Shown here: piece after piece, positions 2,567 to 25,959 of the stretch
Numbering within the stretch: position 1 is the stretch's first letter
How the letters are laid out: every line of letters begins with the position of its first letter
Origin: Gemmatimonadota bacterium
GTDB lineage: Bacteria; Gemmatimonadota; Gemmatimonadetes; Longimicrobiales; Gaopeijiaceae
Assembly: GCA_028874905.1 (NCBI GenBank)
Contig: JAPPGZ010000045.1
Span: 1 to 64,000 of the forward strand
Direction: 5' to 3'
DNA length: 64,000 nucleotides
The notes under the pieces: model-generated
The model's input: only the letters and a program-made list of their open reading frames with translations
What the model was told of the DNA's origin: nothing
Databases searched by the model: none
Translations under genes and position numbers: made by a program

Positions 2567-3547
2567 ATGGTGGACGGCTTCGGACGCCATATCGAGTACC
2601 TGCGCATTTCCGTCACGGACAAGTGCAACCTGCGCTGCGTCTACTGCATGCCGGAGGAAGGTCTTCCCTGGCTTCGGCGCGCCGAAATCCTGACCTACGA
2701 GGAGATCACGGATGTGGTGCGCGTGATGGCGCGCATGGGTCTCAGGAGACTCCGGCTGACCGGTGGCGAGCCGCTGGTCCGGAAGGACCTGCCGCGCCTC
2801 GTCGAAATGCTGGCGGCGGTCCCCGGGATCGAGGACATCGCCCTTTCGACCAACGCCGTGCTCCTCGCCCCCGTCGCCAGTCGTCTGCGGGACGCGGGGG
2901 TGAGCCGCGTGAACATCTCGCTGGATTCCCTCCGGCCGGAGCGGGCGGACGCCATCGCGCGCCGCCCGGGAACCCTGGCGAGAGTGTTGGAGGGACTCGA
3001 CGCGGCGCACGCCGTGGGATTTGATCCGATCAAGATCAACGTCGTGCTCATGCACGGCGAGAACGACGACGAGGTGGCCGACTTCGCCGAGTTGTCGCGC
3101 AAACGGCCGCTTCATGTCCGGTTTATCGAGGTCATGCCCACGGAGTCCAACCTGGAGTTGAGCGCCTCCGGATTCCTTTCCTGCGACGAAGCGCTGTCCC
3201 GCGTGCGCGAGGTGGATGCCCTCGAACCGGTACCCGGTCCCCCCGGCAACGGCCCCGCAACGTATTTCAGCTTCCCCGGGGCTCAGGGCACCATCGGCGT
3301 CATTACGCCCATGAGCCACAACTTCTGTGACCGCTGCAACCGGATGCGCCTGACGGCCGACGGCCAGTTGCGCCCCTGTCTGTTCGGTACGATCCAGACC
3401 CCGTTGCGCGACGCGCTGAGGCGGGGGGATGCGCTGGAGCCGCTGATCAACGAGACGCTCCGGATCAAGCCCGAGAAGCACCTGCTGGTGCAGGGGTCGT
3501 CGGAGGGATCCGGAGGACTCATCGCCCTCTCACAGACGGGCGGATGA
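2567..3547 (+). CDS. moaA: GTP 3',8-cyclase MoaA (radical SAM)
   Basis: MoaA carries out the radical-SAM first step of molybdenum-cofactor synthesis, converting GTP to 3',8-cyclo-dihydro-GTP. The 326-residue protein has the radical SAM cluster CNLRCVYC (Cys20, 24, 27). It also has the C-terminal second-cluster motif CDRCNRMRLTADGQLRPCLF, and it ends in the family's Gly-Gly tail (QTGG). I chose this ATG because AAGGAGG lies eight bases upstream and the length then fits the family. A GTG at 2513 overlapping the moaE stop is the alternative and would add 18 residues. Confidence 0.96.
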   Translation: MVDGFGRHIEYLRISVTDKCNLRCVYCMPEEGLPWLRRAEILTYEEITDVVRVMARMGLRRLRLTGGEPLVRKDLPRLVEMLAAVPGIEDIALSTNAVLLAPVASRLRDAGVSRVNISLDSLRPERADAIARRPGTLARVLEGLDAAHAVGFDPIKINVVLMHGENDDEVADFAELSRKRPLHVRFIEVMPTESNLELSASGFLSCDEALSRVREVDALEPVPGPPGNGPATYFSFPGAQGTIGVITPMSHNFCDRCNRMRLTADGQLRPCLFGTIQTPLRDALRRGDALEPLINETLRIKPEKHLLVQGSSEGSGGLIALSQTGG

Positions 3548-3601
3548 AGCGAATCCGACCTCCTTGCAGTGCCGATTCAACAACCATGGAGAAGCCATAG
3601 C

Positions 3602-4525
3602 ATGGCCGGAAAAATCACCGTCGTAGGCGCAGGGCACGTAGGCGAAGTGTGCGCCCAGCGCCTTGCAGAGAAGGAGCTGTGCCGGGAAGTCGTACTGATC
3701 GACATCATCGAAGGGATCCCGCAGGGCAAGGGGCTCGACCAGTGGGAGAGCGCGCCCGTGGAGGGGTTCGACACGCGTGTGACCGGGGCGAACGGCTACG
3801 GCCCCGCCGAGGGGTCGGACCTGTTCATCGTCACCGCGGGAATCGCGCGCAAGCCGGGAATGAGCCGTGACGACCTGCTGCGCACCAACGCGGGGATCGT
3901 GCGTTCGGTCAGCGAACAGATTGCCCGGGTCGCGCCCGAGGCGGTCGTGATTGTCGTGTCCAACCCCCTCGATGTCATGGCGTACGTGGCCAAGGAGGCC
4001 ACCGGGTTTCCGCGCGAGCGCGTGGTCGGCATGGCGGGGGTTCTCGATACGGCCCGCTTCCGCTCATTCATCGCGCTGGAACTCGACGTGAGCGTCGAGG
4101 ATGTCCAGGCGATGGTCCTCGGTGGTCACGGCGACACGATGGTGCCGCTGGTGTCGTACACGACCGTGAGCGGGATTCCCGTGTCGCACCTCATCCCGCG
4201 CGACCGCCTTGACGCGCTGATCGAGCGGACCCGCAACGGAGGCGCCGAGATCGTAGGGTACCTGAAGACCGGGAGCGCCTACTACGCGCCCTCGGCGGCG
4301 GCGGTTCAGATGGCGGAGGCCATCGTCAGGGACAAGCGCCGGATCCTGCCCGCGGCAGCCTATCTCGAAGGCGAGTACGGGCACGACGGGATCTACCTGG
4401 GCGTGCCGTGCAAGCTGGGCGAGGGCGGGCTCCAGGAGGTGATCGAGGTGCCGCTGAGCGATGCCGAGGCGGCGGCGCTGGCGAAGAGCGCGGACCATGT
4501 GCGGGGGACGATGGCGCACCTGTAG
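3602..4525 (+). CDS. mdh: Malate dehydrogenase (LDH-like type)
   Basis: The enzyme interconverts malate and oxaloacetate using NAD in the TCA cycle. The 307-residue protein has the Rossmann motif GAGHVGE at its N terminus. The loop ARKPGMSR carries an arginine at the substrate-selecting position that marks malate rather than lactate dehydrogenases. The catalytic His lies in [10 protein letters not shown] around residue 175. The ATG start follows GGAGA. It belongs to the LDH-like branch and not to the E. coli type. The gene converges on the exported-protein gene downstream, with only about 35 bases between them. Confidence 0.95.
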
Positions 4526-23221: not shown

Positions 23222-24373
23222 ATGCTCACGCCGGAGAACCGCCGGAACCGCCAGAAGACCCGATCCCGTTGCGCCGCCCGCCACAAGGGCGAGCCCTACA
23301 CCATCCCTGGCCAGGTCCTCGGTCTCCTCATGGTCCTTGTCGCGTCGGCCTGCGACACGGACGAGACCAGTCCTCCGCCGCCAGCATCCGATCCAGCCTC
23401 GCCCCCGGGGTTGGTGGACATAGCGGCGTTCCACGAAGCGTTCGACGTGATCCAGGAGCTTGAGCTGGAAGAGACCGACCAGGCCATGACAGTGCAGCCG
23501 ATGGTCAATCCCGGGGGGGACGGCACGTTCCTGCTGGCGGAGCCGATGGAGGGCCAGGTCAACGTCTACGGCAACGATGGGCGTCTGCGGCGCGTTGTGG
23601 GTGGCCGAGGGCAGGGGCCGGGAGAGTTTGTGTTGCCTCTCGGCGCCCATCGGACTCTCGATGGCGGCATCGTCGTCGCGGACTTCCAGCTTGCCCGACT
23701 GACGTTCTTTCCGGGGTCCGGTGAGGATCCTGAAATCGTCATGTCACCGATCACTACGGTGCAGGGAGCACAGGATCTCGGCGACGATCGGTATCTGCTG
23801 ACCGGGATGCTGCAGTCCGAGGGGGCACCGACGCTTCTGCACATCTGGAACCGCCGAACAGGGGACATCGAACGCAGTTTCCTTCCCATGGGTGTGCCGG
23901 AAGAATCCCGCGGCTACGCACTCACGTTTCAGGGCGCCTTCGCTGCGCTGGAAGCAGACACGATCTGGGCGGGGTGGGCGCTGTCGGACACCCTCTACAA
24001 GTTCAGTCGCCAGGGGGATCGCCTGGAGGAGATCCCTCTTCCGATGGTGAGGCCCATGGGCACCCTGCCCAGGGCCGGTGAGAGCGTCCCCGATGCCGAC
24101 GCTGGCGCGGACGCGCTTGACCGGTTTACTCAGGTGTTCGGGGTGTCCGTGCTTGATGACGGCAATCTGGTGGTGAAGTCCATGCAGTCGCGAGGCACGG
24201 ATGCCGTTTGGGATCTGGTGATCATCGACCGGACGGGGCAGCAACTGCTGGGTGCGCCCAACATGCCGCAGCTGTTGGCCGTGGAACAGGGTCTGTTCTA
24301 CTTCGATGATCCAGCCTCGGTCTTGCCGAATCGGTGGCTTGTGGCGCGTTGGAAGGGTGGTCTCAAGCCGTGA
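23222..24373 (+). CDS. Six-bladed beta-propeller lipoprotein
   Basis: The 383-residue protein has a long basic N terminus and a hydrophobic stretch ending in ASAC (Cys44), which marks a probable lipoprotein. The body is a repeat protein with GRLRRVVGGRGQGPGEF, a hallmark of the NHL/TolB-like six-bladed-propeller lipoproteins common in Bacteroidota and Gemmatimonadota. Further blade-like segments are DGGIVVADFQLARLTFF and DDGNLVVKSMQ. The biochemical role is unknown. The GGAGGGA site upstream sets the ATG. Its stop overlaps the GTG of the thioredoxin-like lipoprotein, so the two are probably translated together, ahead of the small-peptide genes. Confidence 0.85.
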   Translation: MLTPENRRNRQKTRSRCAARHKGEPYTIPGQVLGLLMVLVASACDTDETSPPPPASDPASPPGLVDIAAFHEAFDVIQELELEETDQAMTVQPMVNPGGDGTFLLAEPMEGQVNVYGNDGRLRRVVGGRGQGPGEFVLPLGAHRTLDGGIVVADFQLARLTFFPGSGEDPEIVMSPITTVQGAQDLGDDRYLLTGMLQSEGAPTLLHIWNRRTGDIERSFLPMGVPEESRGYALTFQGAFAALEADTIWAGWALSDTLYKFSRQGDRLEEIPLPMVRPMGTLPRAGESVPDADAGADALDRFTQVFGVSVLDDGNLVVKSMQSRGTDAVWDLVIIDRTGQQLLGAPNMPQLLAVEQGLFYFDDPASVLPNRWLVARWKGGLKP

Positions 24374-24930
24374 GGTGGTCAGTCGGACGCAGCCGCGGCA
24401 TCTGCTCGAATGCCCTCGCCCTGCATCAGGCCGCAGCCACGCTTCTTCTGGCCTGGATGGCTGCCGGGTGTTCGCCGCGGGACGGCAGGGTCCCTGGTGT
24501 CGGGGACAGCATGCCGGGTCTTGAGTTCTCTGGACGGGGTCCGGTGCTGGCGTGGGTTTTCGACGCCCGGGAGTGTCTGGGATGCACGCTCACGGACCCC
24601 GCCAGGACGGTGCGGGCCCTCCAGTATCGGTTGGGCGAACGGTTCGAGGTGATCGCAGTGGCGGTGGGAGAGAACGGCGACGCGGACCGCGATCTGGTTG
24701 CGGGCTTTCTCGGTTTCCAGCGGATTTCGGCAAGGATCGAGGTGCTTGGTCGATCCGATTACGTCCGAGCGTTCGGACAAGCGGTACCGGGCCTGTTCTA
24801 CATCACGAACGAGGCCGGGGTGATCGAGGCGGTGGTGCCGGCGAGCGAAGTCGAGGGCTGGCGCTCTGCGGGGGATTCGCTCGATCTGGCAGGGTTCGTC
24901 CAGAGCCTTGGGACAGGTGCAATTCGGTGA
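24370..24930 (+). CDS. Thioredoxin-like lipoprotein with CxxC motif
   Basis: This predicted lipoprotein of 186 residues has a GTG start overlapping the upstream stop, a signal ending in MAAGC (Cys34), and then a thioredoxin-like domain. VLAWVFDARECLGC places a CxxC pair at Cys69/Cys72 after the first strand. VPGLFYITNEAGVIEAVV looks like the cis-proline strand of thioredoxin folds. A periplasmic thiol-disulfide role is an inference from these features. The position directly upstream of three secreted four-cysteine peptides makes them natural candidate substrates. I do not recognise a named subfamily. Confidence 0.72.
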   Translation: MRWSVGRSRGICSNALALHQAAATLLLAWMAAGCSPRDGRVPGVGDSMPGLEFSGRGPVLAWVFDARECLGCTLTDPARTVRALQYRLGERFEVIAVAVGENGDADRDLVAGFLGFQRISARIEVLGRSDYVRAFGQAVPGLFYITNEAGVIEAVVPASEVEGWRSAGDSLDLAGFVQSLGTGAIR

Positions 24931-24993: not shown

Positions 24994-25230
24994 ATGAAGA
25001 GAAACAGAAGACGTCTTGTGCGCCGCGCCTGGTTGATGCGCGCTGCGGTCATGGGCGCGGCGGCCGTGTTCTCGGCGGGTGCGCCGGCTGTGGGGGTTCC
25101 GGCCGCGGCGGCCGATGTAGAGGCGCGTGGCGACCAGATATGGGAACACGTAATCGGGATGGGGAAGCTACGCATCTGTTGGGGGATTTGCTGGAGTGGC
25201 TGGTGTTGCTACGACAATCCTCACTTCTAA
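24994..25230 (+). CDS. Small secreted four-cysteine peptide 1
   Basis: The 78-residue precursor has a strongly basic start (MKRNRRRLVRRAW), a hydrophobic Ala-rich core and a likely signal cleavage after residue 40 (PAAAA then DVEAR). The mature peptide would be about 38 residues. It contains Cys62, 66, 71 and 72 in the pattern C-x3-C-x4-CC (ICWGICWSGWCCYD), followed by only six residues. It is Trp-rich. GGAG seven bases upstream supports this ATG. A TTG two codons earlier is the alternative. The next two genes encode divergent peptides of the same plan. The function is unknown. Confidence 0.78.
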   Translation: MKRNRRRLVRRAWLMRAAVMGAAAVFSAGAPAVGVPAAAADVEARGDQIWEHVIGMGKLRICWGICWSGWCCYDNPHF

Positions 25231-25247
25231 CAAGAGGGGAAGAGGAA

Positions 25248-25496
25248 ATGCAAAAGACATTCGGAAGAGTTGCAGGCCGCGTGCGGGGCATTCGCGCGGG
25301 CGTGAAGGTGTTGGGTCTGGTCGCGGCGCTGACAGCGGTCGCGCCGGCGCTACCGGACGACGGCGTGCCGGTCGAGACCGTGGCGAGCGCCCAGTCGGGG
25401 CCCCACAAGCTGGTCATCTGGTTTCGCGGATTGAAGTTCTGCACCCACTACGCATGTGGCGGAGCCCCGACCTGTTGCGGTCCCGTCCTGTTCTGA
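25248..25496 (+). CDS. Small secreted four-cysteine peptide 2
   Basis: The 82-residue precursor has a basic N terminus (GRVAGRVRGIRAGVK), a hydrophobic core and a probable cleavage site after residue 48 (VASA then QSG). The predicted mature part is about 34 residues, with an alternating hydrophobic/basic stretch HKLVIWFRGLKF. Cys65, 70, 76 and 77 follow in the pattern C-x4-C-x5-CC (CTHYACGGAPTCCG), and five residues end the chain. A purine-rich Shine-Dalgarno (GAGGGGAAGAGG) fills the 17-base gap after peptide 1. Apart from the cysteine plan it shares little sequence with its neighbours. Confidence 0.78.
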   Translation: MQKTFGRVAGRVRGIRAGVKVLGLVAALTAVAPALPDDGVPVETVASAQSGPHKLVIWFRGLKFCTHYACGGAPTCCGPVLF

Positions 25497-25510
25497 GCAC
25501 GAAACACACG

Positions 25511-25526
25511 GCGGGATTGTTCCCGC
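25511..25526 (+). promoter_or_regulatory. Intercistronic hairpin before peptide gene 3
   Basis: GCGGGA-TTGT-TCCCGC is a perfect 6-bp stem with a 4-base loop, ending directly against the AAAAGGAT ribosome-binding region of peptide gene 3. It could set relative expression or mRNA stability within the operon. No U-tract follows, so full termination is unlikely. Confidence 0.45.
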
Positions 25527-25540
25527 AAAAGGATGACATC

Positions 25541-25789
25541 ATGCAAGGCAAAACGATGGAGTGCTTGGCGACAGCTGCGGCGAGGAGCGCGAAGATCGCG
25601 TGCGTTGCGGCGGCGCTGCTGGTCTCCGCGCCCGGCACTGGAGAACACGCCTCGGTTACCGCGGCATCGGTCAACGGCGACTGGTGGAGGGTACACTTCG
25701 GGACCTGGATCCTGTGCCTGCCCATACGCTGTATGGTTGGCACGCCCTACTGCTGCGACATGTTCTCGCCACCGGGTCCGATGACGTGA
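25541..25789 (+). CDS. Small secreted four-cysteine peptide 3
   Basis: The 82-residue precursor has a signal-like N terminus (AKIACVAAALLVSAPG) and likely cleavage near residue 42 (VTAA then SVNG). The mature part of about 40 residues has an aromatic stretch DWWRVHFGTWI. Cys59, 64, 71 and 72 follow in the pattern C-x4-C-x6-CC (CLPIRCMVGTPYCCDM), with a ten-residue tail rich in Pro. Two further cysteines (Cys8, Cys21) lie in the signal part. The same layout as peptides 1 and 2 argues for an old tandem duplication. The function is unknown. Confidence 0.77.
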   Translation: MQGKTMECLATAAARSAKIACVAAALLVSAPGTGEHASVTAASVNGDWWRVHFGTWILCLPIRCMVGTPYCCDMFSPPGPMT

Positions 25790-25810
25790 CCCGCGCGGCA
25801 GGTATGGAAA

Positions 25811-25829
25811 CGCCGTCTCTGTGACGGCG
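25811..25829. terminator. Hairpin downstream of peptide gene 3
   Basis: CGCCGTC-TCTGT-GACGGCG is a perfect 7-bp stem with a 5-base loop, beginning 21 bases after the peptide 3 stop. A longer hairpin follows immediately. Together they probably form the transcription end of the peptide operon. Confidence 0.5.
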
Positions 25830-25836
25830 GTTGTAT

Positions 25837-25869
25837 CCGGCGGGCTCCTCACAGAGAGGAGCCCGCCGG
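25837..25869. terminator. Strong hairpin between convergent operons
   Basis: A perfect 14-bp inverted repeat (CCGGCGGGCTCCTC, loop ACAGA, then its complement) lies between the peptide operon and the convergent bshB1-like gene. Neither side has a strong T-run, but the stem is the most stable in this region. Its location fits a bidirectional terminator. Confidence 0.65.
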
Positions 25870-25959
25870 CGTTCATGGGTGCTTGTCGTCTCGCCCTTGC
25901 CGGATTTGGCTCCCGCGCGCCGGACAGAACGCGAAGTCCCACCGAATCCGTGCTGGCCG

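Follow-up and report, generated by a model that had tools for sequence, protein, structure and literature searches.

Short four-cysteine peptide genes of Gemmatimonadota and their linkage to propeller and thioredoxin-like lipoprotein genes: a putative exported three-component cassette

Introduction

Three consecutive short genes, at positions 24994 to 25789 of contig JAPPGZ010000045.1 from a Gemmatimonadota bacterium (assembly GCA_028874905.1), encode small precursors with signal-like starts and clustered cysteines; do they form a genuine peptide family, and with what partners would such peptides work? The window, here the whole 64,000-nucleotide stretch analysed, had previously been described in a sequence-only reading, which proposed an old duplicated family under selection for its cysteine frame, named a profile comparison, a neighbourhood analysis and codon substitution patterns as checks, and likened the locus to the NVEALA peptides of Bacteroidota, short exported cysteine peptides encoded near propeller lipoprotein and TlpA-like genes. 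The best explanation, judged from sequence, is that the three are Sec-exported product genes of a new family, within an exported three-component cassette that also encodes a beta-propeller lipoprotein and a thioredoxin-like lipoprotein (redoxin). The unit of evolution is this triad, not the peptides alone.

Results

The three genes lie on the forward strand and encode peptide 1 (24994..25230, 78 residues, C-x3-C-x4-CC), peptide 2 (25248..25496, 82 residues, C-x4-C-x5-CC) and peptide 3 (25541..25789, 82 residues, C-x4-C-x6-CC). Each precursor begins with a basic N-terminus, which leads into a hydrophobic segment and then an A-x-A-like region; the mature part contains four cysteines, the signal region of peptide 3 holds two further ones, and a Shine-Dalgarno-like purine-rich stretch stands 5' of each of the three starts. 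The coordinates, signal-like starts and mature cysteines agree with the earlier description of three tandem secreted-peptide open reading frames (ORFs). Its core, C-x3/4-C-x4/6-CC, held as a four-cysteine frame and needed correction in the second gap, which is 4, 5 or 6 residues. Relative to peptide 1, identity was 26-27% for peptide 2 and 20-21% for peptide 3. No peptide matched a Pfam or NCBIfam family, as the earlier reading, which had recognised no known family, anticipated.

When six frames were scanned strictly for ORFs with a signal-like start and a C..C..CC arrangement near the ORF end, the whole 64 kb window returned exactly three, peptides 1-3; 410 kb of related loci returned 41, every one within a homologous cassette, and 43 kb of control loci returned 0. 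A profile hidden Markov model was built from 30 peptides of other loci, with the window and its three nearest same-site relatives excluded; against 1,221 window segments it recovered peptides 1-3 on top (E 2.8e-16, 8.2e-10 and 3.1e-7, respectively), the next segment having an E of 0.024. With mature parts only in the profile, peptides 1 and 2 were still distinct (E about 2e-5) and peptide 3 gave E 0.23, so that peptide 3 is assigned to the family by its full-length precursor, its close orthologues and its location. Codon comparison of the window with three relatives yielded ratios of non-synonymous to synonymous substitution (dN/dS) of 0.30-0.71 for the peptides, 0.26-0.48 for the redoxin and 0.18-0.29 for the propeller; the peptide genes are coding and under purifying selection, yet evolve faster than the propeller gene. 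The strict scan, the leave-out profile and dN/dS together rule out chance ORFs. Across aligned members the four cysteines are invariant and the remaining sequence changes fast, in keeping with the proposed old family selected on its cysteine frame, and homologues with the conserved frame exist in 26 genomes.

In the window the peptide genes end a run of five on one strand, in the order propeller, redoxin, peptides 1, 2 and 3, followed by a hairpin. The propeller gene (23222..24373, forward strand) encodes 383 residues; the redoxin gene (24370..24930, forward strand) has a GTG start that overlaps the propeller stop by four bases, and is followed at 63 bases by peptide 1, with gaps of 17 bases between peptides 1 and 2 and of 44 between peptides 2 and 3. 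A first scan of species genomes found the five genes in identical order in three relatives, all Gemmatimonadota metagenome-assembled genomes (MAGs); two of the nearest relatives are MAGs that presumably derive from sponge metagenomes. Searches covered the family and 395 genomes of Gemmatimonadota and, outside the phylum, plasmids only. The total came to 33 cassettes in 26 Gemmatimonadota genomes, most of them MAGs, belonging to several families; 16 cassettes occupy the syntenic site and 17 lie elsewhere. This count leaves out about thirty weak redoxin matches (E 1e-6 to 1e-3) and a weak peptide match in genome G046; two other genomes (G185 and G344) have weak peptide matches with no cassette there, and the cassettes of loci L060, L088, L121 and L160 are damaged or cut by the assembly. 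The neighbourhood analysis bore out the expected association, with a six-bladed-propeller lipoprotein gene and a thioredoxin-like gene as partners in all 33 loci, and every cassette contained one to three short signal-peptide ORFs with clustered cysteines.

Loci reached via a peptide are selected for having one, which does not apply to the 13 that were reached via the redoxin profile alone and adjoin a propeller gene (L120-L126, L157-L161 and L165). All 13 carry a cysteine-peptide ORF, counting that of L121, which is truncated at its start by the end of the contig; none is present at the six redoxin homologues that lack this propeller (L162-L164 and L166-L168). By our own arithmetic, the Fisher probability of 13/13 versus 0/6 is 1/27,132. 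Gene order is propeller-redoxin-peptide(s) in the window and 15 syntenic relatives, peptide-peptide-propeller-redoxin in L089 and L090, peptide-propeller-redoxin-peptide in L120 and redoxin-peptide-propeller in L165; since it varies among the other sites, the co-location is not merely an inherited order. L054 carries an in-frame fusion of the propeller to the redoxin, with the propeller first, a single ORF of 578 residues that has no second signal.

The syntenic cassette is flanked by nuoM-nuoN-pmm on one side and PIG-L-macB-macB-rnd-tolC on the other, some contigs stopping before one flank, and it stands beside pmm and PIG-L/macB in 16 genomes. Five genomes of the same genus have an empty site, with only 155-710 bases from pmm to PIG-L, and in same-genus genomes without the peptide the close redoxin homologue is missing too; the cassette is inherited as a unit. 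The macB genes of the window are on the strand opposite to the cassette and are kept in genomes without it. Membership of the peptides in a macB/rnd/tolC operon was rejected because these flanking genes are absent from the other cassettes, and PIG-L/macB persists in sister genomes that have no cassette. In L057 (6567-9600) the cassette is followed by a partial PIG-L gene and a second propeller gene, then by an intact PIG-L gene, an arrangement that looks like a duplication of the region.

Downstream of the cassette, between convergent genes, is a G+C-rich hairpin of 14 bp (25837..25869) with no T run; the fold of 25795-25885 has an energy of -53.3 kcal/mol (z -5.2), and the hairpin is a possible terminator. 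No promoter-like site was detected, and the window contains zero Rfam families.

In syntenic cassettes with several peptides, a C-x3-C peptide comes first and C-x4-C peptides follow (x5 in L051). On a tree of 22 peptides the C-x3-C and C-x4-C classes were split by a single change, a value as low as which was reached in 0 of 500 shuffles; as read from the sequences, this split suggests paired peptides with distinct roles. The A-x-A-type region varies among members (AEAQ, SAQA, VEAS, AEAR), and in many precursors, chiefly from the genus of the window, the C-terminal residue is hydrophobic (PLF, PLY, PLL, PII, GVL, GQL, AGF). Additional cysteines occur in the peptides of L123, L124 and L161, and in L165 CWC replaces CC. 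An AlphaFold2 model of peptide 1 (predicted local distance difference test score, pLDDT, 56) gave a hint only, of a hairpin ahead of the first cysteine.

The propeller is a six-bladed NHL/DUF5128-type lipoprotein. All 12 propeller relatives matched DUF5128 (best E 4.9e-7), the window protein alone giving E 0.0039, below the standard of Pfam's cut-off; the propeller profile matched NHL propeller structures at E 2.9e-28, its lipobox cysteine is invariant, and a tblastn search of the propeller against plasmids gave zero matches. The window's own genome has about 40 propeller-profile matches, four of which form a tandem array (L218, 2-4680). A rule that every propeller has a cysteine peptide was ruled out, most examined propellers in this genome being without one. 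Other cysteine peptides do occur beside propeller genes. On contig C16 of this genome (L200, 2188-2802) a different cysteine-rich secreted peptide (...CDSDPYCHWTPIEDCVVQPCWTTANICCWP), with a good Shine-Dalgarno sequence, is encoded directly 5' of a six-bladed propeller gene (2806-3942); on contig C92 (L199, 1860-2093 and 3973-4323) two more unrelated cysteine-rich secreted ORFs adjoin two divergent propeller genes; and in L089 (10840-11070) and L088 (6811-7041) another cysteine peptide (...CAEAGCGYVTWVDCICPDIQMPNRSPQCDE) is encoded just 5' of a second, distant propeller, near the triad cassette.

The redoxin, which like the propeller carries a lipobox, gave no Pfam match over the cut-off; its AlphaFold2 model (pLDDT 83) has a thioredoxin fold and was ResA/TlpA/CcmG-like in structure comparison (Z up to 13.5). 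The matches included a putative disulfide isomerase of Bacteroides thetaiotaomicron (Z 13.5, 135 residues, 2.6 A) and the 'quenching protein' structure 7djk (Z 11.8, 128 residues, 2.7 A), which we take to be SOQ1; no NHLRC2 structure was among the structural matches listed, an absence that excludes nothing. The CxxC motif is CLGC in the window, and among relatives the second cysteine is kept in 19 of 19 and the first in 17 of 19. Two redoxins, in L091 (6333-7772, reverse strand; GLAC) and L125 (5447-6148, reverse strand; YLTC), retain only the second cysteine.

Sco-type copper proteins also appeared among the structural matches, and four clustered cysteines are the sole strict feature of the peptides; both would suit a peptide that forms a small part of an envelope complex, binding metal or presenting thiols reduced by the redoxin. 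We regard this as highly improbable, as no His/Met ligand pattern is conserved, and several divergent peptides per locus, together with the extra cysteines in three loci, fit a cofactor site poorly.

Discussion

Our preferred explanation, which we hold to be probable by a slim measure, is that propeller and redoxin form a dedicated envelope complex for the folding and recognition of exported disulfide peptides. By analogy with NHLRC2 and SOQ1, the two lipoproteins would assemble into a single complex, anchored in the envelope, whose CxxC site faces a propeller surface; the complex would capture peptides newly exported by Sec and form, isomerise or check two disulfides in each. The paired C-x3-C and C-x4-C peptides would then be mature effectors, envelope-bound or secreted, with signalling to kin or host, or competition, as candidate final roles.

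Several points weigh against this explanation. Genetic linkage, export signals, fold and the fusion are established, and binding, disulfide transfer and secretion are steps that we infer. The window redoxin lacks the cis-proline, having Gly in that column (Pro in 12 of 19 relatives; the column was placed by sequence alignment rather than by coordinates), and the distant redoxins of L091 and L125 lack the first cysteine; catalysis by the redoxin is not certain for these two reasons. The Trx-like (thioredoxin-like) domain of NHLRC2 was itself inactive in an insulin reduction assay (PMC6107167). Most examined propellers of the window's genome have no cysteine peptide, so that a propeller alone does not imply one; branch support for the x3/x4 split is weak; and the structure model of peptide 1 is of low confidence at pLDDT 56.

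The redoxins of L091 and L125 are nevertheless accompanied by a propeller and a cysteine peptide, an argument for a role that is non-classical or based on binding. Redoxin copies without classical features would also suit a receptor: the mature peptides could be extracellular signals, and the propeller-redoxin complex their receptor or a redox-gated sensor. That the propeller-redoxin pair is obligate, and that propellers are common binding modules, as NHL repeats are (PMC6107167), speaks for such signalling; the cassette contains no transducer, regulator or TonB-type partner, and neither of the two lipoproteins has a cytoplasmic domain; on balance we consider a signalling role unlikely.

Bacteriocin operons can carry dedicated thioredoxin-like helpers, as with PedC, which raises the potency of pediocin (PMC4919988). 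Pediocin PA-1, a class IIa bacteriocin, resembles the peptides of the triad in its disulfides and in having a thioredoxin-like protein, PedC, encoded with it. The peptides described here could likewise be paired secreted antibacterials, with the redoxin as a PedC-like disulfide helper and the propeller protecting the producer; their faster evolution than the partner genes, the ordered x3/x4 pairs and the patchy presence of the cassette within the genus would all fit. They differ from pediocin in having a Sec-type signal region, no double-glycine leader being found in the aligned members; a dedicated exporter gene is not a constant part of the cassettes examined, there is no ABC exporter, and a propeller stands in place of a small immunity protein. 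The site is moreover stable and vertical in one lineage, unlike typical mobile bacteriocin loci, and a bacteriocin-like role seems to us improbable. A ribosomally synthesised peptide modified by a dedicated enzyme was ruled out, no candidate enzyme recurring in the cassettes.

The architecture of the proposed folding complex has a natural precedent in NHLRC2, where a cleft between the Trx-like domain and the six-bladed NHL propeller holds a cysteine motif, with a lumenal relative in SOQ1 (PMC6107167). Human NHLRC2 and SOQ1 of the plant thylakoid lumen resemble the cassette in joining a thioredoxin fold of the ResA/TlpA type to a six-bladed NHL propeller; in the cassette the two are usually separate overlapping or neighbouring genes, fused once (L054) in reverse domain order. 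Theirs is a CCINC motif with no known cysteine-peptide partner, whereas the cassette encodes lipoproteins with CLxC and a constant peptide gene; no conserved neighbours were found across seven bacterial genomes (PMC6107167). The redoxin shares fold (Z up to 13.5), membrane anchoring and CxxC with the envelope thioredoxins ResA, TlpA and CcmG, and differs from them in its CLxC, the cis-proline that is not kept, the missing Pfam match and the linkage to propeller and peptide.

The earlier interpretation stood as regards an old, duplicated and selected family beside propeller and thioredoxin-like genes; its link to NVEALA did not. None of 27 members matched Pfam NVEALA (PF14055) at E up to 10, a search in which HMMER filters can drop weak matches, and the genome has no match over the cut-off; NVEALA identity is ruled out on this profile evidence. 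The 'ADVEAR' of peptide 1, once taken as a resemblance, falls in the variable A-x-A-type region, where other members have other residues. What the two systems may share is context: short exported cysteine peptides beside a propeller lipoprotein, here a DUF5128 relative. They differ in peptide sequence and in the CLxC redoxin, a constant partner here.

The triad may work in the manner of PedC-assisted disulfide peptides and of the NHLRC2/SOQ1 unit, by analogy and not by demonstrated membership of either group. The folds, and the idea of a peptide with a dedicated thioredoxin-like helper, are known; no description of their combination in a triad was found among the open-licence papers searched.

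Three anonymous ORFs have become a defined, testable gene system with constant thioredoxin-like and binding-type partners. The combination of a propeller, a CLxC redoxin and a signal peptide with C-x3/4-C-x4/6-CC offers a signature for secreted peptides missed by family libraries, and the peptides are candidate natural substrates for a thioredoxin plus NHL-propeller pair, of which the eukaryotic forms, NHLRC2 and SOQ1, are important and unclear in mechanism. More tentatively, and with doubt prevailing, the cassettes may represent a peptide system that extends across the phylum Gemmatimonadota, with a dedicated thioredoxin-propeller complex of the envelope that would make, fold and read disulfide peptides which come in pairs and diversify. 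If so, bacteria would have peptide signalling or competition of a new kind, and the otherwise unexplained Trx-NHL architecture of NHLRC2 and SOQ1 would gain a function in bacteria.
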